Shown here piece by piece: positions 3,101-34,500 of a stretch of 64,000 nucleotides of DNA. Origin of the DNA: Trogon surrucura. Its lineage: Eukaryota > Chordata > Aves > Trogoniformes > Trogonidae. The stretch spans positions 2,790,001 to 2,854,000 of the forward strand of contig CM036636.1 of NCBI GenBank assembly GCA_020746105.1. Direction: 5' to 3'. The position numbers and the translations under genes are program-made. The notes below the pieces were generated by a model. The model searched no databases. It was not told the origin of the DNA and was given only the letters and a program-made list of their open reading frames with translations. How positions within the stretch are numbered: the first letter of the stretch is position 1; each line of letters starts with the position of its first letter.

Positions 3101-6100
3101 CCAGGGAGCTGGGGGTCCTGGGGAAGGGATGGAACATGTGGGCAGCCCACACAGCTCATGCATGGCCATGGACCACCCTGCACATCTCCACTCCCCGCCC
3201 CCAGCACCCTGACCCGGCTGCCCACACCCTCATCACCTCACCCCCCATCCCTGCTCCCCTTCAATGCCCCAAATCCCCCTGGACAGAGCCCATGTCCCAC
3301 ATCCCCACCCCGGGGCAAGGACAGGGACCCTGAGCCGTACCTGGTGCCGGGGGGCTGGTGCTCAGGGGTGTGCGTAGGGGGTGACACCCTGCTGGCCTCG
3401 GAGCCCACGAAGCCGCTGTCTGTCTCTGGGGACACGATCCGCTGCCCCTGCAGATGCATTGGGGAGAGCAGGAGTGGTGCTGACCATCCCTAGGACCCCT
3501 CCCAGCAGGGTCTGGGGGGTGGTGGCCAGTGGGGACCTGCAGTCCCAGGGGACTCACCTTGCGGGGTCGGTGCTGGGCGATGGTGCTGCTGTGGTGGGAC
3601 AGGGGTGCCCGCGGTGGCTCAGGGAGCTCCAGGGAGGACTCAGCTGTGGCTGGTGGCTCCTCTGCAGTGGCAGGAGACAGGCAGCCCCGTGCCTCCTGTG
3701 GCCATAGAGGGTCCCCAGGGGGCAACGCCATGGCTCTCCTCTTTGTGGGGTGCCTGCAGGGAAGGAAGGAGCATGATCAATGGGGCAGAGCAACCCCGAA
3801 TATAGGGAAATGCTCTGGTGCAGCCAGCTCCACCATGCAGGCTGTTAACTCTGAAGCCTATCGATGCCAACCTGAGACATGACATCAAACCTCCCACTCC
3901 CCCTGTCTGGATTACTTATCTTCCCACAACACTTACAATGGGGAGGTCGCAAGGTTGGTCCCTTCTTCTTGTGACCGCGTCCTGCAGGGGACCTCGCTGG
4001 CACCTCCATCCCCTTCTCCTGGTCCATCCACCTCCTCTTGGGACCTGCTCTCTGCCAGGCTCAGCTGCTCCAGGCTCAGTGACTCTGGCAAGGACTTGAA
4101 GTGCTTGTACCTGGAGGGGACCCCGCAGACAGCAAGTCAGTGTTTCTGGGGAGCCGCTTCCTGTCCGTATCCTCCCTACCCCGGCTGTGAAGGGCACTCA
4201 CTGCTCCAGCAAGTCGCTGAAATCCTCCTCCACTTGGAGCTGCTTGTGCCAGAGGGGCCGGGGCAACCCCTCCGTCACTGCTTCACTGTCTCTCGTGGTT
4301 CCCCGGGGACCCTCCATCAGCACAGGGCTCTGCAGGGCACAGCAAAAGGGGGTCACAAAAGCATGACCCCACCCCAGCACCTTTGCACCCCCTCTCCACA
4401 GCCCGCTGCAGCCTCCCCCAGCTCACCTCGGGGCGTGGGGACCGAGTGGCCGGCGGCGAGGAGGGGGCTGGTGGGGAGCAGGGCTGGGCTGTGGGCTGTG
4501 GAGGGGGCTGTCGCCTGGCCCCGGGCTCCAACTGCTCCTTCAGTTCATCCAGGCGCAGCCCCAGGTGGAAAATCTCCCCTTCCACCGCGCTGCAAGACAG
4601 GGACCCTCAGTGCCGGGGAGACACCGGACCCCGCAGCGCGTGGACTGGCAGTACCAGGGTCCGGGGCTTGATGGTGAGGAGGGCCCAGCACTTACCGGTC
4701 GGGATCAAACTCCCCCGAGCTCCCCGGGTGCTGCTGCCGGGCTTGCAGGTACGCCCGCTCCAGAGCATCCTGCGCATCCTTCAGCTTCTTCAACCTCTGC
4801 GGCACAACCACAGCAAGGTCCAGTCCTGCTCCCTGCCATCCCCCCGCCCAGCCCCGGCGCAGGGGGCCAGGAAGGGGATCACTTACCTGGAACTGCTCCT
4901 GGGCCACGGGGCTCCCCGCTTGGAGCCAGCCTTCGAAGGACTCCACCTGGATGGGGGAGAAAGGGCTGAGCCTCCCCACTGCAGCCCCTCCCTGCAGCCC
5001 CCACCCCACATTCCCCCCCACCCCCAGGGCTTGCCTGTGCCTGCAGCTTGTGGGTCTGTCCCCGCAGGGTCTGCATCAGCTGGGTCCCCGAGCAGCAGCA
5101 CGGCCCCGGGCACGTGGCGCAGACCCCCTCGGGTGGAGGGGGGCAAGGAGGCTGGGGTGATCCCCCCCGGTTTGATGATCCCGGTGCTGGAGCTGCTAGA
5201 AAACAGGAGGACGAGGCAATGATTGGACCCTCGTCCTGCAGCACTGGGCTCCTCCAAGCGCGGTGCTGAATGACCCCCAAATGCAAGCAGGAGGGTGATG
5301 AGATGGCTGGGAGAGCACGGCTGGACCCACCTCCACCCGGCGTGGCCGAGCTGAGCGCTGCCGTCGCAGCCCGCGGGATGTCGAGGGTCATCACACGGCA
5401 GCCAGTGCCCCCCATGGTGCCCACGGCCAGGCTGCGGCTTGGCTGCGGTAGGTCGGCGTAGAGGCTCACCTGCGGGCAGAGAGAGGGGATTCGGGCACCC
5501 ACCCCGCACCCTGACCCGGCCCTGTCCCCATGGGAGCAGCGGGCAGGTGGGGGCACCAGCCTTGCCTCAGTTTCCCCACCTGCGCAGCGGTGCAGGGTGG
5601 GAAGGGTGACACAGGGACACTTTTGTCCCCCATCCTGCCACCTCAGCGACATGCCCCACGGCCACCCCCTACATTTGGGGGCTAATTCTGCCCAGCCTCC
5701 TCCCCCCAGCACAGAGGGGAGCCCGCCGGGCTTAGGAGGGGCACAGCAGCTCCCGGTTTTCTTGTCAGCTCTGTGGTGGCCGCAACCCTCCCTCCCTGGG
5801 TTTGCTCAGCCACAGCTCCCCAGGGAAGAGGAAGAGGAAGGAAGACACCCCGAATAACCCTGGGGAGGGGGACCCCCCACCCCGGAGCCATCCTGGCCCT
5901 GGTCCCCACCCTGGCACCCAGGCGCAGCTGGTCGATGGTGTTCTCGGCCTCAGCGTACTTGGTCAGCAGCTTGTGGTAGTCGTCCTGCAGGGAGGGGACA
6001 CACCATGGGGTGACAGCACCCGGGGGTGACGGCACCCGGGGTGGGGATGCCCAGGGCAGGGGATGTGGCACGGAGGGAGGTGTCCCTGTGTGGGAATGAT

Positions 6101-9100
6101 GGGGATGGGGTGGGGGTGTCCCATGGGTGGGGGACAGTCTGGGGTACAGAAACCACCCCCCCCAAGCACCCAGCCTATCTGGTGCAGAGGTGACCCCCGT
6201 TTTCTCTGTGTGTGGGAGAGCTTCCCTTTCCTCCCAGGGGGCAGGAGGACATCCCAGGGGACAAGAATCCTGGGGGGGGGACACGAGCACTCCTACCCCC
6301 ACCCTTGAGAGCTGCCCACAACCCTGCCTGCTCCCTCCCTCCTCACCAGCCGCCCGCCAGGACCAGAAAGAGGTGACCAGCACCAAACCTCCCCCGCGGT
6401 GACACCTCCACTTCCCTTGCACCCGCTGGTCCCCCCCCCCCACCCTTCCCAGTAAGGCCTCTCGGGTTGAACTGGGCATTACCTGGAGCTGCTGCACCAG
6501 CTGGGTGGCTTGCCTGGGGGACCTGAACTCCTGCGGCAGTGCCGTGGCAGTGGGGGGCTGCGGGGGGACCCCCTCCCCGCTGCTCAGCAGCACCTCCCGC
6601 ACGATCTCGGCCGGGGACTTGAAGCCGATGGGGCCGCGGGGGACCCCAGGGCGGACGGGCAGGGCTCGGCCCCGCGGCGGTCGGTAGCTCTGGTTGAACT
6701 TGACCCTCGCCTCCACCTTGGAGAGGTCGGGCAGGGGGTGGTTGAGCTGCCCGCGGCCGTACCGGGTGCCTGTCCCCGAGGGGTCTCTGGCCTCCTTGCT
6801 CCCCGTGCGCCGCTGCTGGGGGCTCAGGGATGGTGACTGCCGGCCAGGCTTGGGGGGCAGCACGGTGGGTGATGCTTTCTTGGGCACCTGGGACCTGTTG
6901 TGCAGCTGGGGTGCGGGGAGGGGTTCCCCACTGGGTGCTGAGCCAGTGGTCCCAGCTGGCTGGGGCTTGGGCCTGGGCTCCACGCTGGCAGCGTCACGGA
7001 GTTTGTTGGTGGAGAGGTGCAGAGGGATGCTCCGGCTCGGGGTCCAGCCTTGACCATGCCCCTCGCTAGCATCCCTGGCTGTGCCCCAGCCCCGGTGCCG
7101 GCGGGATGGGGTGACAGGGCCAGGGCTGGCATCTGAGGTGTCACCACCATCCGTGCTGCAGCCGCGGGGCTGGCAGAGATCCCGGCCATCCCGCAGTGTC
7201 TCAGGGCTGCTGCTGGACCCTGAGCCCCACCGGCCCTCAGAGGAGAGCTCGGGGTAGGGATCCCCGTCACTCTCCACCCCCCAGGGCCCCTCGTCTGCCC
7301 CGGAGCTGCCCTGCTCCTCCTCCTCCTCCAGGTCCTGCCGCGGGTGCCAGTGACCCTCCTCCGCTGGGGACCCCTCCTCTAGGTCCTCGCCATTGCCTGC
7401 AAAACACCAGCGCCGTGGCACTGCTGCCAACCAGCCCGTGCCCCCCGGCCCCCCCGCAGCCCCCTTCGGCCCCAGCAGCCTCTGAGACACCTGGGACCCC
7501 CCACGAGGATCTTTGGGCAGCAGGAGGGGACGACTCACCCCATGGTGGGTTCCCGGCAAACTCCCCCAGGCCAATGACCCCATCTTCGTCCATCCGCCTC
7601 TCAAAGTCGTCGTCTTCCTCCTCCTCCTCCTCTCCCGCCCAGCGCGTCAGCTCTGTTTGTGTCCAGCGCAGCCATGGTGCCGGGCTGGCCATGGCCCGCG
7701 GGGACGGCGTCCCCGTCACTTGCGCCGCTTCATGGCCCGGCGGCGGTGGCGGCGGGCTGGGGACCTCCTCGCCATGAATGTAGGTCACATCATCGGCGCC
7801 GCGTCCTGGGGGGGGCTGAGGGAGAGGGAGGGATGCTCAGTGGGACACAGTGGGCTCTGTTTGAGGTGTCCACCCCCCGCTGCCAGTGCTTCTCCCGTCT
7901 CCTAGACCCTGGGGACAAAGGCAACCCCCATGATAGGGAGGGGGTGTCACCCTCAGGCCACCCCCCATCACCTTCCTGCATCCCACCAGGAAGCCAGACC
8001 TGCCACATCTCCCACAGCTATGATGGTGCCCAGAGGTCCCTGCGGGGAAGGGGAGCCCCCCCGAGCCCCCCCCAAGGGCTTTTTCCCCTCCAGAGTCACC
8101 CCAAAAAGCTTTCTCCCGCCCAGGACAGGCACCGGGGCACACCCAGCCTGATGTCAGCATCCTCTGGATGTAAGCCCAGCATGGCAGCCACAACTTAGGG
8201 ACGGTCATCGGTGCCATCATGGCACAGGACAGGAGCACCCCAAGGAACCTCCAGCTCTGGGGGGGGGGCTGACAGAGAGAGAAATCACAGCAGGGGCCCA
8301 GGACGCTCGCTCCACCAAAAAACTCAAAGCAGGAGCTCGCCCTTGCCCTGCTCCTCGGTGCGCCAGGGCTCCCAGAGAGATGCTGGATGCCGAAAATCCA
8401 ACCTCAGGGCAGGCAGCAAGAAAGCTCGCAAAGATTTTTTTCTCCCCGACACGCCCTTGGTTAGATTCAAGGCCCCCACAACCCGTTTTTGGCCACGGGG
8501 TGCTGGAGGCTGGTCCCCATCAGCCACCCTAACCCAATTCCAAAGCAAGGGGGTACACTCACCCTGTACCAGCATCCCTAGGACATCAATGTCCCCGCCA
8601 TGGGGGTGTCCCCACAGCAGCACCCCTCCGAGCACCTCAAAACCTCCCCTGCGCGCCCGGGCGGGTTTTTGCAGAAGTAGGAAACGATGCTCGGGTGCTT
8701 CCTGCAAGTTTGCAGGCAGCCGCAACGGTTTTCAACCCCGTCAGGCCCTGCGCGGCGGAGGTTGGGGGGGAGGCAAACCCTCCTTCTCACGTCGCTTTTC
8801 GTCAAAGCCTTTATTTTATTTTTTAAATTCTTTATTATTTAAACCCTGGGACCATCAGCAGCTGCAGCCTTCAAAAGACATCAGGATGGGGAGCTTCCAG
8901 GAGGGCGAACACCCCCAAAATTAAGCCATACAGCCCCAAAATTCAGCTATATAGTCGCTAAATTCAGTCATACAGCCCCAAAATTCAGCCAGGTGGACCC
9001 CTCCTTGGAAATCCGGGATATGGGCTTTGCCCATATCCCGGATTTCCAAGGAGGGGTCCACCTGACCCACACCCCGAGATGTTGCTGGAGTTCCCAGGGA

Positions 9101-10278
9101 CACCGTGGCCGTAACCAGGCACCCTGACGCGTCCTGGCGTGTCTGCAGGCAGGGAATTAATCCAGCTCGTTACTGTGTAATTAGTGGCACGCGGAGGAGA
9201 GCTTGAGCAAGCTCCCGGCTGCTAACGAAACCGCAGCGCAGTCTCTGGGGTGGCTGCGTTTAGCTGGAGGGTGCCGCGGTGATTTCAGGGTGCTGCCGGC
9301 TCGGGGTTGGGGGTGATGAGCAGCAAACCTACATACTCCAGTTGAAGTCCTTCAATGTGTTCCGAAGTCTCAGATCTGCCAATTTCCTGACTTAAATCCT
9401 GCTGTTAGTGGGGTTTTGGGGGTTATTTTCTGGCATCGATGTCCTTGGGCATCGTTTTTGCACTGGAGGCAGCTCCTGCCTGCATCCTTGGGGCTTTCAG
9501 AGCGAGGAACAAACCCGGAGCAAACCTTGAACATCCCTTAGGGTCTTGCAAATCTCCTAGGGAGTTTGCAGGAGGTTTTGTTTTCCCTGCATTCTGCCTG
9601 GGCAACTCCACTTTCAGCATCTGGAGATGCTCCAGCGCTTCTCCTGCCTCTGGGGTGCTGTCACCAGGGACCATGAGGTTGCCCATGGGATGCTTCAGGT
9701 TCTGCAGCTGCTCAACACAGCTAAAGAGCGATTTTGGCTTTAGCCCTTCTCCAAGGTGGGATGTTTCCAGCCCCACAGCCTTGCCCAGATCCTGGCCCAC
9801 AGAAGAGACACACCAAATCCCCCCTGACCCACCTCGAGCCCCGCAGCATCCCTGAGAGATGAGAAGCCCCCAACACCAGCCCTGGGGGCTCCTACCAGGG
9901 GCCGAAAGGAGCCAGTGGTTCCTTGTGTCGCAGGGCAAACAGGGTTACAACGTTCCCCACCCAGTTTTGGCAGGCTAGTGCCCACATCGTGTCTGACCCA
10001 GACACCATCAGCCGTCACCCCGACTCCGAGCAGGGGCCCCCCGGGCCGCGCTGCCCACAGCAGCCACAGTCTGCAGGATCTCCTTGCAAATCCAGCCACA
10101 TTTATCGCTTTCCCAGACAGTCTCTTTGCTGACGGTTATGGTGGTAGGAGAGAAAATTGGATTTTTATTCCCCCCTGCTTTGAGTTGCTCGCTATTATGG
10201 TAGCACAGAAAAGCTTGAAAAATGATGTGGCTATGTACTCAGGAACAACAAAAGAAATGCAAACAATTCCAAGTATAT

Positions 10279-10311
<33 letters not shown>

Positions 10312-12415
10312 GAGCCCTGTGGGCTGAGACTGCCCAACTCACGTCATGCATGAAACGAGTAGCACAGCCACGACCAACGTGAAGCAGCCCCTATCACCGC
10401 TCCCGGGTTGATCTGTGCTGACAGTGGAAGAGATGTCACATCCCCAGCCCCAGGGCTCACTCGGTGACATGGAGGTGGTGGCGACAGGGAGGGGAAGGGG
10501 GATGGGACAGGGTGGCTGCGACTCTGCCTTCGCTGCCTTGTCAACCCCTTGGCAGAGCAGGAGGGCTGGGGGAGGCTCTAAATCCCCCTCCCACCTCCAT
10601 GCTGCAAATGAATATAGTCATCCCTTGCCTGGGAGGGGGGTTAAAGCCCCCTCTGCGGGCCGCAGGGGGGGCTTTAACCCCCCTCCCAGGCAAAGAATGT
10701 CTGTTTTATTTCCCTAAACCACCAAACTCAACTCCAGAGGTCCCAGCCACCCACATCACCTCAGGACATCTACACCCCAGCACCCCAAGAGGACAAGCAG
10801 AAGGTGCCAGGACCTCCGTTTTTTGGGGTTTTCAACTAAAAGCAGCTTTGCATTTTCAACTAAAAGCAGCTCTGCAACCCAGGGCTTTGAGGTGGGGGGT
10901 ACACTTGGGGGAAGGTTGGAGGAGGCCAGAACCGCCTCAGGCTGCAACTTGGCAAGGGGGCTGCACTCCAGGAGGGAGGAATTCGTGGTTTACAAACCCT
11001 TTTTTAAATTATTTAAGCCTACAAAGTCCTGTTTTATGAGCATGAAAGAGGGCAGAGAAGCGGAAACGTCGCTTTTTTAGTTTGCGCTATTTCCCATTAA
11101 AAGAAGGGAGAAACCATCATAGCGAGGAAGAGCCTGGCAAACCCTCCTCATCCTCTGAAAGTACACACGCCTTTCAATGTACTGTCACTCTAAAATCCAC
11201 GTGTCCCTCTCAGTTCCTTCTGCCTGGAGGGGCCCTGTAACCACCAGACTCCCCCCTAGACCGACATACCCCCACCAAGAAGTACTGAAACCCTGTGGAA
11301 ACAGCACCTTCTCCAGCCTCTGCACTGAATTGAAGCCCCACGGCGGGTCAGTGACCCTCTCCCACAGTCATTTTCCTTCCTGGGACACGAACTCCCCTGT
11401 CCTCGGCACAGGGCTCCATCCTCCCCGGGGACAGCATTGTCCCCAAGGCTTGTACACCCTGGGGTTGAACCCCAGCATACCTGCAGGAGCTGCCGACGGC
11501 CGTAATGCCCGCGAAGAGCAGCTTTAATCCCCGTCTGGAGAGAGTTGGAGAGACCTTCTTAGCACAGGGCAGGGGGAGGGCAGCCGGTCCCAAGCAACCG
11601 GCAGTGTATCGTGGCTGGATTTGGGTAACCAAGTGCATCCCCTGCTATTGGGGAGTCCTTAAAACATCCCTGCTCGCATCGTTTCGGGTGATTTTTGTTA
11701 AAGGGTGCTGCAAAGCGAGGGAAAGCCACGACGCCCATCTGGCACCCACAACCTGACATTAAGGCACCGAATGCATTCACGGCTGCCCTTTAAATAAAAC
11801 AAGGAACCGAAGCCGCGGGCAGCCCTTGCGACTTCCTCGGAGGAGGCAGTGGCTCGGCCTCGAGTCCCGCAAACCCCCGGGCTTGGCTTCGCGCCGCCCT
11901 TCGGCCTGATGAAACCCTCCCGAAATCTTCCGGCCGCAGATTCGGCCCCGGGCGGGGTTGGAAGCGCCGGAATAAGAAAAGTTACGACAAGTTTCCTCAG
12001 AGCCAGGCGCGGGCAGGACACGGGGGGTGGCGAGAAGCGGAGCGTCCCGCATCTCTCCGCGCGTCCGCGGAGATGCGCGGAGAGATGCGGGACGTATCGC
12101 TTTTCACCCCGCGCCGCTCCTCCCAGGGACCCCAGCCGGCTCCAGCCGCGCTCAGCGGAGCTGGGGGGAAGCTGGATGCGGCCCCCGCGATGAGGCCAGC
12201 CCCGCGGGCCCCCAGCTGTGCCTCCAGCTGTGCCCCCGGGGGCGTTCTCCTTCCCCCCAGCTGCACAAGGCGGCTCGCAGGGAGCAGCCGCGATGGTCCC
12301 ACGCCCCGAACCATCCCCGCTCGCCGCCTCCCGGGGCACAGCTGGGGACACGCACATCTGGCTGGGGGGCACCCCCTGCCCCGCGCATGCAACAGCTGCC
12401 CCGCGGCTGCTCACC
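1..12415 (-). CDS. AKNA: AKNA gene (3' end truncated by window edge)
   Basis: AKNA, first described as an AT-hook transcription factor acting on CD40/CD40L and later shown to be a centrosomal subdistal-appendage protein that recruits gamma-tubulin complexes and drives delamination of neural progenitors (family knowledge). CDS is the complement join of 7692-7539, 7396-6483, 5984-5910, 5469-5337, 5195-5035, 4946-4887, 4796-4696, 4589-4427, 4329-4202, 4110-3937, 3753-3558, 3447-3341, 3030-2894, 2680-2493, 2100-1927, 1731-1628, 1462-1328, 1068-943, 723-560, 195-1. Predicted length is about 1,200 aa against about 1,439 in human. Phases agree throughout except for one extra base in the exons at 2493-2680 and 560-723. 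Exon 1 (ending 12415) appears non-coding. The gene lies immediately downstream of WHRN on the same strand, as in human 9q32. Confidence 0.93.
560..723 (-). CDS. AKNA: AKNA exon 20 (one-base frame conflict)
   Basis: The 3' part encodes EPGLWYLATGPGAPTAISCL, then APIPLVPYVPSVL, matching human PPGLWYLATAPPAPAPPAFA and PIMPYPPA. Donor GTGCT|GTAAGG. The best acceptor (CCTCCCTGCAG|CAGAGC, start 723) enters in the wrong phase by one base. A run of eight G (plus strand 692-699) lies between; seven would give the continuation HGAEP, like human SGAEK. A downstream acceptor after the C-run (start 689) would also be in frame with no change. Confidence 0.75.
943..1068 (-). CDS. AKNA: AKNA exon 19 (single CxxC)
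   Basis: Two bases, 41 codons, one base: SFWADDAARQPRHSTPRRTR, then CPACRAPMGAPAPGDRDRAT and H. CPAC matches the second CPxC of human AKNA (CPLCGQ); the first human pair is not seen. Acceptor ACCTGCAG|CAAGCT and donor ACACG|GTGGGT, exit phase 1. Confidence 0.82.
1328..1462 (-). CDS. AKNA: AKNA exon 18
   Basis: Two bases, 44 codons, one base: HPGSHPPSLSSESDPSPAGP, then a proline/serine stretch ending PPGMVTFQGQYT. SLSSESD and VTFQGQYTG correspond to human SLSSESE and VTFRGQYTG. Acceptor ATTCTGCAG|CTCACC and donor CACAG|GTGGGT, exit phase 1. Confidence 0.92.
1628..1731 (-). CDS. AKNA: AKNA exon 17
   Basis: One base, 34 codons, one base: EPRPPLRGRAAPGVAPTRRG then RSASLPRDRPELDL. RGRSASLPRD aligns with human RARSSSVPREVLRL. 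Acceptor CCTCTGCAG|GGAGCC and donor ACCTCG|GTGAGT, exit phase 1. Confidence 0.88.
1927..2100 (-). CDS. AKNA: AKNA exon 16
   Basis: One base, 57 codons, two bases. RAIRALQDEVWRLRRRLEES matches human QAICELQEEVSRLRLRLEDS, a coiled-coil helix. A basic stretch LRRSRSYPQGKAPLRAPPGR follows, where human AKNA has its AT-hook RGRP; here only PGRRQP is seen. Acceptor CTCGGCAG|CCGGGC and donor TCAGG|GTAGGT. Confidence 0.92.
2493..2680 (-). CDS. AKNA: AKNA exon 15 (one-base frame conflict)
   Basis: Strong acceptor CTCCTCCCCAG|CTCACA and donor GCGCGA|GTGAGT. The 3' part is in the frame SPDLPSLDAAHCDLLGSRLE, running into exon 16 as ERDRAIRALQ, like human GRDQAICELQ. Entry from exon 14 is phase 1, so as written the exon is one base too long. 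Read from the start it reaches a stop. The exon contains a run of eight G on the plus strand (2621-2628); seven would restore the frame. Either a homopolymer error, a real frameshift, or a weaker acceptor (starts 2652 or 2601) explains this. Confidence 0.72.
2894..3030 (-). CDS. AKNA: AKNA exon 14
   Basis: One base then 45 codons plus one base: TAPVGIYPAGGQGDAAGPRL, PPSTLSQSSSPPRWAESAGS, EAEPD. Acceptor CTTCCCTCCAG|GACAGC was chosen because it is the only one with the correct phase. Donor CCGATG|GTGAGT, exit phase 1. It is poorly conserved relative to mammals apart from its serine/proline character. Confidence 0.78.
3341..3447 (-). CDS. AKNA: AKNA exon 13 (conserved SPETDSGFVGSE motif)
   Basis: 35 codons plus two bases. 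GQRIVSPETDSGFVGSEASR is nearly identical to human ASPETDSGFVGSETSR, followed by VSPPTHTPEHQPPGT. The strong conservation of this short block suggests a phosphorylation or docking motif (inference). Acceptor CATCTGCAG|GGGCAG and donor CACCAG|GTACGG, exit phase 2. Confidence 0.94.
3558..3753 (-). CDS. AKNA: AKNA exon 12
   Basis: One base then 65 codons: HPTKRRAMALPPGDPLWPQE, a serine/glutamate/proline-rich middle (PATAEEPPATAESSLELPEP) typical of the PEST-like part of AKNA, ending LSHHSSTIAQHRPRK. Acceptor TCCCTGCAG|GCACCC and donor CGCAAG|GTGAGT, exit phase 0. Confidence 0.87.
3937..4110 (-). CDS. AKNA: AKNA exon 11
   Basis: One base then 57 codons: YKHFKSLPESLSLEQLSLAE matches human YLSVKSLPEAMRMEEEEEG, followed by an acidic, serine-rich stretch (SRSQEEVDGPGEGDGG). 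The long glutamate run of human AKNA is much shorter here. Acceptor CCTCCAG|GTACAA and donor CCATT|GTAAGT, exit phase 2. Confidence 0.9.
4202..4329 (-). CDS. AKNA: AKNA exon 10
   Basis: 42 codons plus two bases: SPVLMEGPRGTTRDSEAVTE, then PRPLWHKQLQVEEDFSDLLE. It corresponds to human RHKELQMEQVYHGLMERY, whose continuation is in exon 11. Acceptor CCCTGCAG|AGCCCT and donor GAGCA|GTGAGT, exit phase 2. Confidence 0.88.
4427..4589 (-). CDS. AKNA: AKNA exon 9
   Basis: One base completes an arginine codon, then 54 codons: AVEGEIFHLGLRLDELKEQL, matching human ELEAEIYRLGSCLEELKEHI, followed by a proline-rich tail ending PATRSPRPE. Acceptor GTCTTGCAG|CGCGGT and donor CCCGAG|GTGAGC, exit phase 0. Confidence 0.92.
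4696..4796 (-). CDS. AKNA: AKNA exon 8 (coiled coil)
   Basis: 33 codons plus two bases: RLKKLKDAQDALERAYLQAR, then QQHPGSSGEFDPD. It matches human RLKAAHAALEEEYLKACREQHP and GRFDPRRELE. Heptad-like leucines suggest a coiled coil. Acceptor TGCCGCAG|AGGTTG and donor GACCG|GTAAGT, exit phase 2. Confidence 0.93.
4887..4946 (-). CDS. AKNA: AKNA exon 7 (20 codons)
   Basis: VESFEGWLQAGSPVAQEQFQ, phase 0 at both ends, aligning with human VESFERLIQAGRLMPQDQVK. Acceptor CCCATCCAG|GTGGAG and donor TTCCAG|GTAAGT. It forms the start of the conserved helical AKNA core. Confidence 0.92.
5035..5195 (-). CDS. AKNA: AKNA exon 6 (followed by a GC donor)
   Basis: Two bases complete the split codon, then 53 codons: a serine-, proline- and cysteine-rich stretch (EGVCATCPGPCCCSGTQLMQ) ending TLRGQTHKLQAQ, which leads into exon 7 VESFEGWL as human LASQASQFLAK leads into VESFERL. 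Acceptor TTTTCTAG|CAGCTC. The only donor giving the right frame is CACAG|GCAAGC, a GC-AG intron. A cysteine cluster (CATCPGPCCC) is visible; its meaning is unknown. Confidence 0.82.
5337..5469 (-). CDS. AKNA: AKNA exon 5
   Basis: 44 codons plus one base: VSLYADLPQPSRSLAVGTMG, then GTGCRVMTLDIPRAATAALS, then SATP. It aligns with human VNLFSDPPQPNHSIHTGMVP. Acceptor TGCCCGCAG|GTGAGC and donor CGCCGG|GTGGAG, exit phase 1. Confidence 0.9.
5910..5984 (-). CDS. AKNA: AKNA exon 4 (coiled-coil segment)
   Basis: 25 codons, phase 0: DDYHKLLTKYAEAENTIDQL then RLGAR. This is nearly identical to human EDYHRLLTKYAEAENTIDQL and is the most diagnostic AKNA segment in the window. It is predicted to be a helical coiled coil. 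Acceptor CCCTGCAG|GACGAC and donor CCAGG|GTGGGG. Confidence 0.95.
6483..7396 (-). CDS. AKNA: AKNA large exon 3
   Basis: 304 codons plus a split glycine (residues about 52-356). The N-terminal half is acidic and low complexity (DLEEEEEQ). The conserved C-terminal part includes RYGRGQLNHPLPDLSKVEAR, the basic SYRPPRGRALPVRPG, and FKSPAEIVREVLLSSGEG, all close to human AKNA, ending QATQLVQQLQ. PRGR at about residues 292-295 is the nearest thing to an AT-hook core, but RGRP is absent. Acceptor TTTTGCAG|GCAATG (phase 1) and donor CTCCAG|GTAATG (phase 0). Confidence 0.94.
7539..7805 (-). CDS. AKNA: AKNA exon 2 (start codon)
   Basis: CDS starts at ATG 7692-7690. MASPAPWLRWTQTELTRW resembles the human N-terminus MASSETEIRWAE. 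An acidic run (EEEEEEDDD) and a D/E-rich stretch follow, ending FAGNPPW with donor TGGG|GTGAGT, phase 1. Bases 7693-7805 are inferred 5' UTR after the acceptor CCCCCCCCAG|GAC. The frame is open upstream into exon 1, but no in-frame ATG precedes 7692, so this start is preferred. A two-codon uORF (ATG ATG TGA) lies at 7785-7793. Confidence 0.85.
8910..8990. repeat. 21-bp tandem repeat, about four units
   Basis: Degenerate head-to-tail copies of a 21-bp unit with the core CAGCCCCAAAATTCAG and CATA spacers (units near 8911, 8931, 8952 and 8973). The last unit runs directly into the left arm of the inverted repeat at 8990. Confidence 0.8.
8990..9064. repeat. perfect 36-bp inverted repeat, 3-nt loop
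   Basis: Arms 8990-9025 and 9029-9064 are exact reverse complements separated by TTT. The symmetry stops abruptly at both ends (C against A at 8989/9065). It lies in AKNA intron 1 and can form a 36-bp perfect hairpin. Confidence 0.97.
10274..10312. repeat. (TA)n(CA)n microsatellite
   Basis: Alternating TA dinucleotides followed by a short CA run. The short ORFs over it on both strands are artefacts of the repeat. Confidence 0.9.
10625..10693. repeat. 69-bp near-perfect palindrome
   Basis: 34-bp arms centred at 10659, with one mismatch (10652 against 10666) and essentially no loop (centre TGCGGGCCGCA). The outer arm reads TTGCCTGGGAGGGGGGTTAA. It lies in AKNA intron 1. Confidence 0.97.
10829..10876. 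repeat. 24-bp direct tandem duplication
   Basis: Two adjacent copies of a 24-bp unit (core CAACTAAAAGCAGC) differing at one base. Recent local duplication in AKNA intron 1. Confidence 0.92.
12035..12102. repeat. inverted repeat in CpG island, 20-bp perfect core arms
   Basis: Arms 12043-12062 and 12075-12094 are exact reverse complements (GTCCCGCATCTCTCCGCGC within the arm), with a 12-nt centre. After four mismatched pairs, five more pair (12035-12039 with 12098-12102). It lies in AKNA intron 1 near the promoter. Confidence 0.95.
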
Positions 12416-12620
12416 TGCAGCAAGGGCACGGCCGGCCCCTCCTCGTCCGGCGCTGGGCGGCTCCGCACGGCGGGCCCGGGCCCGGACACAATCCCAGCCC
12501 CGGCTCCGGCCCAGCCCACCCCGGCCCCAGCCGCCGCCACCGCCTCCTCCCGGCCCGGCCCCGCCGGACAATAGCGCGGCCCGCCAGCGGCGGAGGGCGG
12601 GGCCCGCGCCCTCATTTGCA
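12415..12620 (-). other. AKNA: AKNA non-coding exon 1 (inferred)
   Basis: A strong donor TTGCTGCAG|GTGAGC ends at 12415 within the CpG island upstream of exon 2. The frame continuous with exon 2 contains no ATG in this stretch, so the exon is taken as 5' UTR. The 5' boundary is arbitrary because no transcription start can be read. The resulting intron 1 would be about 4.6 kb. Confidence 0.5.
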
Positions 12621-12900
12621 TATCCGCCGCTCGCCGCCAATCAGCGCGCACCGCCCCGTGGGGAACGGGGAGGTCGTTAGCCTAAACCCCGCCCTCTCCC
12701 GCTACCCTTATCTGCATAGCCCGCGGCGGGCGGCCAATGAGGCGCAGCGGGACTCTCACTCATTATCATAATTTGTGCAGCGCGGGCACCCTCCGGCGGG
12801 GCGGGGCCGGGCCGGGCGGAACCTCCGCGGCGGGGGGGGCCGGGGCCGGAGCATCCCCGGTTTTGCCCAGCCGGGATAACCGTCGTCACCGCACTGCCAC
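12416..12900 (-). promoter_or_regulatory. AKNA: AKNA CpG-island promoter
   Basis: CpG-dense region between the WHRN 3' end and the inferred AKNA exon 1. It holds an octamer element (ATTTGCAT, 12614-12621; ATGCAAAT in the gene's direction), two CCAAT boxes on the plus strand (12637-12641 and 12734-12738) and a GATA motif (12708-12713). Octamer use fits a lymphoid-expressed gene such as AKNA (family knowledge; site function inferred). Confidence 0.65.
12614..12621 (-). promoter_or_regulatory. perfect octamer motif ATGCAAAT
   Basis: An exact POU/OCT octamer in the direction of AKNA transcription, 16 bp from a CCAAT box in the CpG island. Octamers near start sites are typical of B-cell promoters. 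AKNA is lymphoid-enriched in mammals, so the context is plausible; binding is not shown. Confidence 0.5.
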
Positions 12901-12964
12901 CTGCCCTGCCCGGGTGCCCCGTAGCCGTCCCTGCCCCGAAGAAACTCCCACCAACTCAGCCTTT

Positions 12965-13526
12965 TTCTAACCTGATAGATTTATTGAAAAATTAAAAGCA
13001 CAAGCTCTCTCTATATAAATACGACGACGTTGCCAGCGATTTACAAGGCCTCCGGTTGCTCTCTCTTGCATCCCCACCCGTGGCCTGTTCTGCCCGCCTG
13101 GCCACGGGGCTGAACACCCAAAAGGGCAGGGACCACTCAAAAACCCCTCCAGCCTGAGCCACGGGCCCACCTTGCTCTGCATGTGGCACTCAAATGACAG
13201 TGGGGACACCCAGTCCTCTGCCGTCCTCCTGCCCCGCTCCCCAGCCTGGCCAAGGGGGAGAGTGTTGCTGCAGGGCAGCACCCTCGCCCCGGAGAGGACA
13301 CAGATGGAGACTTTAAGGGATGTTGCACTGATTTCTGCCCGTTCTCAGCGTGCCCTACCCAGGCAGTGACAGTCTGTGATGGGCGAGAGGATGGCTGGGG
13401 AGAAGCTGGGGGTGCCTGCAGGTGCCGGGCAGGGGTGGGATGCTGCTTTCACACCTTGGCGCTGCCCTTCATCCCACTTCGGGCGCTCCCCGACCCAAAC
13501 CACAGTCCCCAAACCCACACGGGTTC
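12965..13526 (-). other. WHRN: WHRN 3' UTR
   Basis: Sequence between the WHRN stop codon and the inferred cleavage site. No other coding exon is seen. The 3' end is set by an AATAAA on the minus strand at 12980-12985 followed by a G/T-rich stretch at about 12945-12957. The exact cleavage position is inferred. Confidence 0.65.
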
Positions 13527-16500
13527 CTAAAGGGCGACGTTGAATTCTGTGACCAAGAAATCAATGTAGTCCTTTTCCTTCAGCTTAAAGGCTTCAGCGA
13601 TGATACGGGCGGCTTCCCGATGCTCTTTTCCCCGTAGTCCCGTGCCGTTCACCTCCAAAATGACGTGGCCCACCTTCAGCTTCCCGCAGTTGTGCGCCGA
13701 GCCCCCACGCTGCAGGAGAGAGGTGGTCAAGCTCATGCTCCCACTGCCCCCCCTCACTAAAGCCAAGGATGAAATACAGGCCCTTTTGGGAAAATGTGAA
13801 ATGTTCCATTTCCATCATGTTCACCCTGACCCGGCGAATGCGAGGTCAGGGTGAACATGATGGAAATTAAAACACTTCACATTTCAGAAAGAGGGGATGA
13901 ATTTGGCTTTCCTCCTGCTTGATCCTGGAGCACAGCACCAGCTGGGATGGCCAAGAATAACCAAGGCGCAGTCAGCTTGGCTTTTCTTTTGCTGTAAATA
14001 ACTTGAATTTTGCCCCAAGTAAACAGAGGAAGCAGTGCAGGGAGACAGCTCCCGACGGCTATCACTCACCATTCCCATCCCAAACGCTTTATCTGAACAG
14101 GAAAAGGGAGTTTCCAGACATCTGGAGACACCAGCCAAGCTTTTGGGACTGCCCAGACCCCCCCCCGAAACATCTGCAGCAAATCCCTAGCTCCCAGGAC
14201 GTGCTTTACAGTATGGGATCACCCACAGGACACGACTGCAATCCTCAGCAACTCCCCCCTGCCCCGCAGAATGGTGCCTCTGATGCCTGGGGAGACACAG
14301 GGCTACAGGAGGAGGAAAGCATCCCTCCAAAATCTCCTCTGGCAGGCCAGTCAGCCACTCCGCTCCGGTAGCAGCTGAAGGGCTTTCCTAAGTCTGTCCA
14401 GGGAGGAGTGTGATGGGACATGCATCTAGTTCTTTCTGTTCTCAGCCTGCCCTACCTGGATGGTGACGATGCGGGGCAGCGGCTGCCGCGTGTTTGCTCC
14501 GCCCTCGATGGCGATCCCCAAGGTCGGCGCGCTCTTGGACACTCGGATCAGACACGATGTGGGCTCCAGGAGCCCGGGCTGCGGGGAGGGATGGCAGTGC
14601 TGCCGAGCGAAGCCAGGCACCGTCTGCCTGCCATCCTTCCTCCACCAGGGCCCCGCGACAGGCAGGTTCACCCCCGGCAGGGTCCCACAGGAAAGAGAGA
14701 GACGTGCTGCCTGCAGGAGCTCTGTGATCCCCAATATCCAAGATCCCAAGTGTGGGCAGGTCTGGAAGGGCCTGGGGAGCTGTGGAGCAGCTCTCCACCT
14801 GCCTGCCTATGTCCCTCAATCTTGCCCCCATCAGAAACCTTCCAACTTACTTCTGGTCCCACCTTCCCTTCTGGGTAACAGGTGACTTCACTCATGGGTC
14901 ACTATGCCCTACGGGTGTCCCCACAGAGCCAGGAACTCTGCCAGGCCCTAAGCAGCTGCTTGCTGGCCCTGGATTTACCCAGGATGGAGTGCACCAGCCC
15001 CTCTCAGCCATTACTGGCTCCATTCCCCACGGCTCAGCCCACAGGCGAGCTGACTCAGCCCATCAAGCAAAAGGACAAATAACCCCTCAAGGTACAGAAG
15101 ACGGGTTGCTACAGCCAGCCAGACAGGCAGCGAGGAGCAGAACTGCCCCTCGGCAGCCCTGGGTGCCCACCTCCCACGAACAGCAGCACCCCGAGGCCCC
15201 TGGGCACCCAGCCTCACCGGCTTGGAGGCCCCTTCTGCCACCCCCTCGCTCCTCGTGGCCTCCTTGAGGCTTCGGCTTTTCCCAGGGACCGGCTGCCGGC
15301 TCTTGTCCTTGCCGCTCATCTCGACCTCCCCGATGTCCACCCCGCTGTCCTCGCTGAGGGTCTGCCCGCTGTCCGACAGCTGGGAGAGCGTGGAGGCTGG
15401 GGAGAGACCAGGGCTGTTAGAGGTCGGGCAGCACGGCTCTGCGGCCAGCCGAGCACCCGCGGGGCCACGTACCGGAGGGAGGACATCTTGCCTGCTCCCA
15501 GGGCTGGGCAGCTTCCCTGGGATTTAGACCTGAACTTCAGAGCAGGGTTCCCAAGTGGAGCCCTCCTGAAGAGTGGAGCTGTGCAGAAGGAGCATCAAGG
15601 AAGAAGTGGGCTCAAATCCAGGTCCAGGATCCAACCCAGATCCCAAACCAGGATGGAGAGAGGGTGATGAACTCAGGGATGCTGCTAGAGCCAGCCCATG
15701 CTCAGCACCACGATCCGGAAGGAGATGAGGACAGACCTGAGCAAAGAGAAGCAGCCGGGCAGGAGCTCTCTCCCTTTTGGGGATGAAGAATCTGGGTGCA
15801 GATCAAGATTCTGCCTCTGGAGATTCACTCCGCAGGTGTGATGGCACCTGCAGGGAGGGCTGCGGGTCCGGGAGATCGGCTCTAGGACTTAAAGGAATTG
15901 TGGGGGGTCACACTGCTGACACCCCTCGGGCCCGAGGCACCGCTCCAGCCCCGCACCCATCCCCTGAAATGAATGAACTAATTGCAGTGGGAGGACGGAG
16001 CCGCGGGAGGGCGGTAACGCCTCTCGCATCGGGTCCCACGGAGCGCGGACGGGAACCGAGCGGGGCTCCCGGGCACCGGGGGATGTTGTGGGGGCTTCCA
16101 GCCCCAAAGCCCCTCAGCCGCAAGCAGAGCCCACCCTCCCGGGCACCCTCAGGGCTCCAGGACAACCCTTCCCAACAGCCGTCGGACCAGAGCCGTTTGC
16201 CGAGGGACCTGTGGAGCCCAGCACGCTCCTCCCTCACTTCCACTTCTTTTTCCTCAGTCAGGATCAATCTGACCCCCAAACACAGTGTAGGAACCATTAG
16301 AATTTTTTTTTTCCCTAAAATCCGGAGCTAATGAGAAAAACCCCAAACTGTTGGCGTTTTGTTTTTTTTTTTTTCCTTCTAAAACTCCACTGGAAGCAGA
16401 TTTTAACACCGAGCACAGCAAAGCCCACGCAAGCGAGAAGTTGCCATCAGCTGCCCAGCAGAGCTCAGTCTTTAAGCAAAAGGCAGCGTGTCCCGCGCTG

Positions 16501-31500: not shown

Positions 31501-34500
31501 ACAAGTTTTCAGTTGTGCTCAGCTAATGGTGGGTGGACACAATAGGACCTGCTGAGCGCTTGACCACTTGTGAAAATGGAATTATTCCCATTTCCTAGGG
31601 AAATATCTATCGTGAAACACAAGGGCTGAACATGCAAAACATGACAGACCACAGACAAGAAAAATCACATGTCGATGACAGGCTTGGTTCCTTCTCTTTC
31701 TAGAGACAGAGAGAATAACATGGAATAGGGAGGCGCAGTCAAGAGAAACTTAATGGGCTTAAGACATGGGTTCTGAGCACCTAAAGTCTCTTAAAAATAA
31801 TCAAAATTGGCTCTGGGAGAAATTCAGTCTCACGGACAGAAAAACAGGTGAGAGATTTTAAACATGAGTTAATGTTAAATGACACCAAATTGAGTTGGGA
31901 CTAACAGGGCTAATAGGATGCCAAAGGGTTTGGCACTAGCACCAGTCTTATTTAAAGCCATCAATGTGCTAGAAGAGAGGTTAAATTACACTTGCAGATA
32001 CCACTAAAGTAGAAGAAGTCTCTCTTTAGCACAAATAATTACCAAAGCAGACCTCAAGAAATTAAAAATACGGACAGGAAAAAGAAAGAATTGATTTGGA
32101 AATGACCAAATTAAGACTCGCAGGAAAATAAGGAGATATTCAGCTTCCCCAGAAGGGAAAAGGGGCAGCAGGGCAGATGATCCATGTCCAGTGATGCCAA
32201 CCCAGCCTGTTGTGGAAGGATGAGAAACAGATTTCGGAGCAAGGCAAGCAATCAGCGAGTGCCAAGTGCTGTCTCAAACCATGTTCTTTTCCCCAAACAC
32301 CTTGCAACACAAAGCAGATACAGACCAGGAATGAAAGCATACAAGGAGAGAAGATGGTCTCTTGGGGCAGGCAGTGCTGCGAGGAGGCTTCTGGTAGCCT
32401 CCCAGAAGAGGAAAAATTTAATCAACGTCTGTCCCCATCAAGGTGACACGATTGGACGGACCACTCCACACTGCCTCCAGCAGAAAGGTTACATCTCGCG
32501 TATCACAACCACGCACCTCCCTCATTGAATTTCTCACTCTACAGCTTATTCCCCAGACTCCAAGGCAGCCTCAGAGGCTCTTTTATCTTCTCTTTTTCAG
32601 TGTATTTATTCACGTGCAGATCTCAAAATACAAGCCAGTAAGATCCTTCACCTCTTTCTATTTAGTCTCTCTTTTGCATCCTCCTGCTCTTGTACATGCT
32701 CAGAGCCACAGGGATGATGGAGGGAGTGGAACATCTCCCTCATGAGGAAAGGCTGAAGGAGCTGGGGCTCTTCAGCTTGGAGAAGAGGAGGTTGAGGGGT
32801 GACCTCATTAATGTTTATAAATGTGTAAAGCGTGAGTGTCAGGAGACAGAGCCAGGCTCTTCTCGGGGATGCCCAGGGACAGGACAAGAGGAAACAGGTG
32901 CAAGCTGGGGCATAGGAGGTTCCGCGAAAACATCAGGGAAAACTTTTTCACTGTGAGGGTACCGGAGCCCTGGCACAGGCTGCCCAGCGAGGTTGTGGAG
33001 TCTCCTTCTCTGGAGACTTTCAGAACTCACCTGGACACATTCCTGTGTGACCTACTCTGGGTGATTCTGCCCTGGCAGGGAAATTGGACTAGATGATCTC
33101 CAGAGGTACCTTCCAACTCCAAGCACTCTGTGATATACATGGATCATGGGCAGCCTCTTTCTACCCCAGCCTTTGTGCTGGGAAGTCAATATTAAGTTGT
33201 TTGTTCAAAGAAAACTACCTGAAATCTGCTATTTCTGAAGTAAAGGTCAAGGGGAGAGGAAAAAAAATGCTTAAAAAAAATCCTGACAAAACACACCATC
33301 AGAAAAAATGAATGAGGAAGAAATTGGGATGAGCAGAGCCACAAATACCAGCAGAACAAGCTCAGCTCCTGTGCAGCGTCACTGCGAATGTCACAAAGGA
33401 GGCAGGAAGGACAGAAGCTGAAAGCAAACAAGACTGGCTCATGTTCCTCCTTTGCAGTCCTCTGCCAACTCACACTTTTTCAGCCTGAGAACTTACACCG
33501 AGGCAGCACACTTTACAAGAGGCCCAAAGAATGCATTGTCAGAAGTTTCATGAATGAATAAACATAAAGGAGGCCAAGGCCAAGAGTATGAATATTTAAT
33601 TATTGACTGACTGCATCAATTCAGCCTGTTTTCTGCCAGCACCTGCAGAGCTCTCTGCCTCGTGGCCACAGAGCGACGGTACCCAAACTGGCACTGGCAG
33701 GGCTACATCTCCTCTGGGATCCACTCCGCAGGACCACGGCCCTTGTTTCTTTAGCAGACAAAAGCCAGCTTAGCTTTTGGGCCTAGGAGAAACCTCCTGG
33801 GTTTTGACTGGCTTTCAATACCATGTTGTTCACCCTTTAACCAAAATGTAAGAGAAATGTAAAACATGTTATTAAAAATGCTCAAAAAATCCTGATTTGG
33901 TGCCATAGATGCAAGCAGGTTTTCCCTAAAATGAAAAATCTGCTATAGAATCATAGAACAGTTTTGGTTCAAGATCATCGAGTCCAACCTTTGTCCCAGC
34001 CCTATCAACACCACTAAACCATGTCCCTCAGTAAAACATCCACCCGTAGAATCAACTCAAACAATTCTGGTAATAAATTCAGTGAAAGCAGCAAAACCCA
34101 CACTGCCTGGAATGTCAGCAGGAACCTTCCTATCAACCCAGCAAGGTTGGGTTGATACCCAAATTGAACAAACCCACAAGTTTTCTATTTGAGAGAGCAA
34201 TGAATTATCTGGAAATCACATTTACCCATCAGTTCTTCCCTCCTCATGGTATCACATCCCTTCCACCAGCACCAGCAGCAATGCAGGGAGCTGTGGATGC
34301 AGTCTACACCCAACCATGTCTAACAGCAGAACATAAAAGGCCTTTCTCTATCTACAAATCTCCAAGCAGTTCTAAATTTAGGGCCTGCAGCATACACAAA
34401 TCATAGTGGGAAGTGTCTGCGTGTATCTGAAATTGCACAAAGCCTGACATTCGGAGAAGCACTGCCCTGCTGGCACGCACAAATCAGTTACTAGAAAACA

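Follow-up and report, generated by a model that had tools for sequence, protein, structure and literature searches.

A 64,000-nucleotide (nt) stretch of the Trogon surrucura genome (assembly GCA_020746105.1, contig CM036636.1, positions 2,790,001 to 2,854,000; hereafter the window) carries four long, near-perfect inverted repeats, H1 to H4, within 4.9 kb at the presumed boundary of the genes AKNA and WHRN. Each of these hairpins was most probably left by a fold-back template switch, and the inner arms of H3, H4 and perhaps H2 may have been re-copied later. The presence of four such repeats within 5 kb was claimed in an earlier note on this sequence, and all four were recovered. Point mutation is a very unlikely source of long perfect hairpins, and such hairpins are best read as template-switch scars. 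The mutation type is already known; the clustering and the layering of the hairpins are the interesting parts.

None of the four hairpins is assigned to a strand. H1 (arms 8990-9025 and 9029-9064) is paired at 36 of 36 positions around a loop of 3 nt (TTT) and has no outer layer. The core of H2 (arms 10625-10658 and 10660-10693) is paired at 33 of 34 positions with a loop of 1 nt. The core of H3 (12043-12094, arms 12043-12065 and 12072-12094) is paired at 22 of 23 positions with a loop of 6 nt, or alternatively at 20 of 20 with a 12-nt loop, and that of H4 (13808-13867, arms 13808-13831 and 13844-13867) at 24 of 24 with a loop of 12 nt. The limits given previously for H3 and H4 reach beyond the cores: 12035-12102 takes in flanking bases and 13792-13884 includes part of an imperfect outer layer. 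The hairpins are not copies of one element, as had been stated: queries flanked by 100 nt gave no mutual matches at E up to 0.01. A scan of the window for inverted repeats (up to 1 mismatch between arms, loops no longer than 120 nt) found no other arm longer than 16 bp, which agrees with the statement that nothing comparable occurs elsewhere in the window; the pair near 34131, given as 10 bp, is in fact 12 bp with 1 mismatch. The two 16-bp arms are located in TA simple sequence at 10273-10304 and at 12224-12345 (loop 90 nt), both within the region of the cluster. At wider spacing GC-rich pairs exist, e.g. 12545-12565 with 12800-12820 (21 nt, 95%, 234 nt apart). Two tandem repeats are also located here: a 21-nt array of four copies (8909-8991), whose last two bases overlap the left arm of H1, and a 24-nt repeat of two copies (10829-10876, 95% match) 136 bp past H2, a further local duplication.

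The genome comprises 1.166 Gb in 164 contigs, and the contig holding the window (12.06 Mb) is presumably a bird microchromosome, to judge by these sizes and by the CR1-like repeats. For comparison, 28 stretches of 10 kb (280 kb; 344 kb together with the window) were taken at coordinates set in advance. Twenty of them adjoin the window on both sides, giving a contiguous 264 kb, and 8 are distant: 3 on the same contig (C23), 2 on C30 and 1 each on C28, C26 and C1 (the latter with 426 N). Hairpins with arms of at least 20 bp and loops up to 30 nt number six in the 344 kb, namely the four of the window and two others, H5 and H6. Arm lengths run up to 17 bp and then, after a gap, are 20, 24, 34, 34, 36 and 44 bp. 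When the 344 kb were shuffled five times with dinucleotide composition preserved, every arm stayed shorter than 17 bp (loops of at most 30 nt). The six are thus local perfect reverse-complement copies beyond what chance provides, as is expected of template switches. A mismatch-tolerant scan added 2 candidates that exceed the range of the shuffles; they are long, imperfect inverted repeats made of TA/CA simple sequence, at L012:9178-9275 and L010:3536-3617 of the comparison stretches.

The direction of copying can be read from H6 (L024:2207-2298; 44 of 44 paired, loop 4 nt), which lies in the 3' end of a repeat (L024:2141-2310) that we take to be CR1-like. Four other copies of this repeat (in L012, upstream in L024, in L027 and at 34.7 kb of the window) were aligned with H6, a fifth copy in L021 being left out of the alignment. 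All four are colinear with the right arm of H6, and none has a left arm. In H6 the left arm together with ~15 nt of filler replaces a short stretch that is kept in 3 of the 4 copies and has a shorter form in that of L012. Because the other copies have no left arm and retain the stretch lost in H6 (shortened in L012), the left arm is a derived inverted copy of the right one. This polarised case supports the view that template switches by fold-back occur in this genome. An ancestral state with one arm is thus seen for H6 through the four CR1-like copies; the polarity of H1-H4 is presumed. H5 (L012:4215-4286; 33 of 34 paired, loop 4 nt) is situated ~14.7 kb from H1. Its right arm continues into a ~23-nt tandem duplication of shared sequence (L012:4215-4320, by eye), hinting that the right arm may be the older one.

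The loops of H1 to H6 are 3, 1, 6, 12, 4 and 4 nt long, below the 60-120 nt that the scans admitted (30-100 nt in the last stretches). In all six, therefore, source and copy lie within ~100 nt of each other, and loops of at most 12 nt suit intra-strand fold-back priming. A 3' end, in the course of replication or of break repair, would fold onto its own strand or jump to the other strand, copy backwards for some tens of bases and then rejoin its template; the product would be a perfect inverted copy next to the original. In an older, decayed inverted repeat (H3, H4, perhaps H2) a later switch near the loop would re-copy one inner arm from the other. Such re-copying, known as quasi-palindrome correction, would restore a perfect core and leave the outer part decayed. 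The earlier note had offered a local process or selection for structure. Template switching with fold-back synthesis is the best explanation, given the polarised H6, and selection for structure is not borne out by any Rfam family at gathering score. Beyond this we infer which enzymes acted and when, which arm of H1-H4 came first, and that the density reflects a promoter-proximal stretch prone to mutation and not luck.

Later re-copying is suggested by the flanks of the cores. H4 with its outer layer extends over 13772-13904 (13772-13807 and 13868-13904; 27 of 38 columns paired), H3 over 12012-12124 (12012-12042 and 12095-12124; 20 of 31 columns) and H2, weakly, over 10606-10711 (10606-10624 and 10694-10711; 13 of 19 columns). 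In an anchored extension, which is the test mainly relied on, local control pairs scored as high in 1 of 1000 cases for H4 and in 0 of 1000 for H3, as compared with 18 of 1000 for H2; H1, H5 and H6 showed no extension past the core at all. The layers had been tested before by a 40-nt global alignment, in which genomic controls were as good at a frequency of 0.0017 for H4 and 0.016 for H3, and shuffles at 0.0000 for H4 (0/3000) and 0.03 for H2. H4 (in both tests), H3 (in the anchored extension, less so in the global alignment) and, weakly, H2 thus seem to sit within decayed inverted repeats of greater age that share their centre. A split-scan permutation of the match vectors from the loop outward found the inner core less diverged (p 0.021 for H2, 0.027 for H3 and 0.005 for H4; Fisher 2.8e-4), these hairpins having been chosen for their perfect cores. 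A split between a perfect inner and a decayed outer part is rare from one evenly decaying duplication, and a second switch re-copying an arm would give it.

Several observations weigh against this reading. The selection of hairpins by their perfect cores biases the layer test. The layer of H2 is weak, with 0.60 of genomic controls as good in the global alignment and 0.018 in the anchored extension, and that of H3 is not significant against shuffles (0.12); the score of the H3 layer may owe part to its GC-rich composition. A neutral-decay simulation (60 copies of each of the six hairpins at every step; expected ratio of decayed detectable to near-perfect hairpins 0.63) needs no homogenisation: the 6 near-perfect hairpins predict ~4 decayed detectable ones, and 2 are seen, both of simple sequence. 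For the same reason the scarcity of decayed hairpins was rejected as a proof of homogenisation, the observed 2 to 6 being set against the expected 0.63. For the ~15-nt filler of H6, the surrounding 10 kb offers no source of more than 8 nt. Finally, the template switches described in great apes occur in AT-richer DNA (PMC7954356), whereas the present cluster lies in GC-rich DNA.

Other origins of the hairpins were weighed against template switching. They could be functional RNA stems, microRNA-like or otherwise structured and kept perfect by selection: on both strands they are predicted to form very stable RNA folds (z -8.0 to -13.7, the latter for H1 on the plus strand), and H4 combines a long stem and a 12-nt loop with a position in a WHRN intron. 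Template switching has moreover been reported as an origin of microRNA loci (PMC8794818). However, the window has no Rfam match at gathering score, and a permissive search of 8900-14000 returned 38 sub-threshold rows, mostly of unrelated miRNA families and several of them on either strand, a pattern expected of a long hairpin. Thus a described microRNA family is matched below the curated score only; since the four hairpins also have no common sequence, we regard functional stems as improbable. Perfect pairing by itself is no evidence for functional RNA.

Short near-complete inverted repeats in non-coding DNA are also the shape of miniature inverted-repeat transposable elements, but the four hairpins are unrelated in sequence both among themselves and to the other 280 kb. 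H1 to H5 have no sequence kin among the sampled loci (344 kb), where H2, H3 and H4 are each single, and H1 was found at one place in a genome-wide search in which counts are lower bounds; we regard this origin as very improbable. Fold-back chimeras are a known type of sequencing artefact, and fold-back reads could have entered the consensus of the assembly. Yet the six products measure 52-92 nt, unlike read-scale fold-backs, their sizes and loops differ among hairpins, and diverged outer layers are not expected from an artefact, which makes an assembly or sequencing error very improbable.

The genes around the cluster were assigned as follows. The last WHRN exon, which encodes a PDZ domain, lies in an open frame at 13527-13814 on the minus strand that matches whirlin chains (E 1.5e-32) and ends in a stop. 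H4 is located just upstream of the 3' splice site of this exon (by eye near 13716). A partial AKNA domain (PF12443) is found in an open frame at 4283-4606 on the minus strand with E 8.9e-5, below the curated cut-off; AKNA was found neither in 3 other frames of the region nor in 8 others, and this frame is the 1 of 10 in a further set that gave a match. A CpG-rich stretch at 11501-13000 (no strand assigned; GC 0.58-0.76, observed/expected CpG 0.80-0.96) is presumed to hold the AKNA promoter and first exon. By this arrangement H1-H3 would be situated between the presumed promoter and the AKNA coding sequence, in AKNA intron 1. The span described previously, covering AKNA intron 1, its promoter and the last WHRN intron, is supported on the WHRN side; the AKNA match is weak, and intron 1 depends on the CpG-rich stretch.

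It was further examined how exceptional the cluster is. Four hairpins in the window are set against 2 in the 280 kb outside it, i.e. 4 of 6 in 64 of 344 kb (P 0.013). If the 5 hairpins of the contiguous 264 kb are placed uniformly, 4 of them fall within 4,878 bp with P 1.4e-4; the window was picked after the fact for its cluster, and the cluster P values carry that choice. Outside the window the rate is ~7 per Mb (95% interval 0.9-26). With this rate, 0.06 clusters of the kind are expected in the whole genome at the point estimate, 1e-5 at the lower limit and 9 at the upper one. The cluster thus stands out in the sample, which partly bears out the earlier note, but the uncertainty of the background rate allows several like it genome-wide, and the sample is too small for the cluster to count as exceptional.

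Two interpretations of the density follow, both compatible with a fold-back origin of each hairpin. The hairpins may be scattered at one genome-wide rate, with the best window noticed by chance; the upper rate of 26 per Mb, the window-versus-outside P of 0.013 and the post hoc choice of the window all favour such scatter, whereas the point-estimate rate and the uniform-placement P count against it. We consider chance a serious candidate, somewhat short of an even probability. Alternatively, the AKNA/WHRN boundary may be a hotspot at which fold-back switching happens in the germline, with promoter-proximal transcription (through R-loops or breaks) in a GC-rich microchromosome as the driver. Inverted repeats would be repeatedly made there and their loop-proximal arms re-copied, giving layered hairpins, perfect inside and decayed outside. 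In this full form the proposal is tentative and rather doubtful. The clustering, to which H5 adds as one of the two outside hairpins only ~14.7 kb from H1, is suggestive of a hotspot that is plausible, if unproven, and a link of the hotspot to the promoter at AKNA/WHRN is plausible as well. The GC skew of the minus strand is positive in 10 of 12 half-kb bins of 8001-14000; equal or stronger skew is found elsewhere in the window, so that the involvement of R-loops is a speculation. In the portions of the literature that the search covered there is no report of hairpins at the AKNA/WHRN locus or of such hairpin clusters in birds; a quail copy-number study (PMC6438477) contains the name AKNA once.

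Long perfect hairpins also provide material from which new RNA stems can form. In a natural cluster whose layers differ in age, one could ask directly if template switching acts locally and recurs at certain germline loci, and if loop-proximal re-copying keeps hairpins perfect without selection. Self-inverted 3' ends of CR1-like repeats such as H6 could serve as a genome-wide counter of template switches.

Among known systems, the avian microinversion hotspots CLTC and CLTCL1 (PMC3123225) resemble the present case in that small inverted-sequence changes are concentrated at a few bird loci. In contrast to the inverted duplications seen here, the events at those loci are true inversions, described there without stem-loop association. 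The short-range template switches of great apes are described by a four-point model: thousands of events with intron enrichment are reported, their perfect local inverted repeats are like ours, and for a subset a quasi-palindrome-to-palindrome conversion is suggested (PMC7954356). The ape events were polarised by relatives, whereas here four long hairpins occupy one 5-kb stretch and the ancestral state comes only from H6. The conversion itself was shown in yeast under high transcription in strains missing RNase H2 (PMC3820800), and quasi-palindrome mutations of yeast and E. coli (PMC3820800, PMC7202029) lengthen the arm identity of an imperfect inverted repeat, which is what may have happened in H2-H4. 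Those mutations were scored in frameshift-reversion assays; the cores of 23-34 bp considered here belong to a natural genome, and the mechanism is deduced from them. Foldback inversions at yeast double-strand breaks (PMC11724301, PMC7467729) likewise yield inverted copies of tens of bases from hairpin priming. The break products of PMC11724301 differ in their 41-nt loop and in being mostly shorter than 14 bp, and their enzymes can be carried over to the trogon by presumption only. The yeast foldback inversions of PMC7467729 include a short-loop class of less than 15 nt, the mre11/sae2 class, and all six loops found here fit this class.

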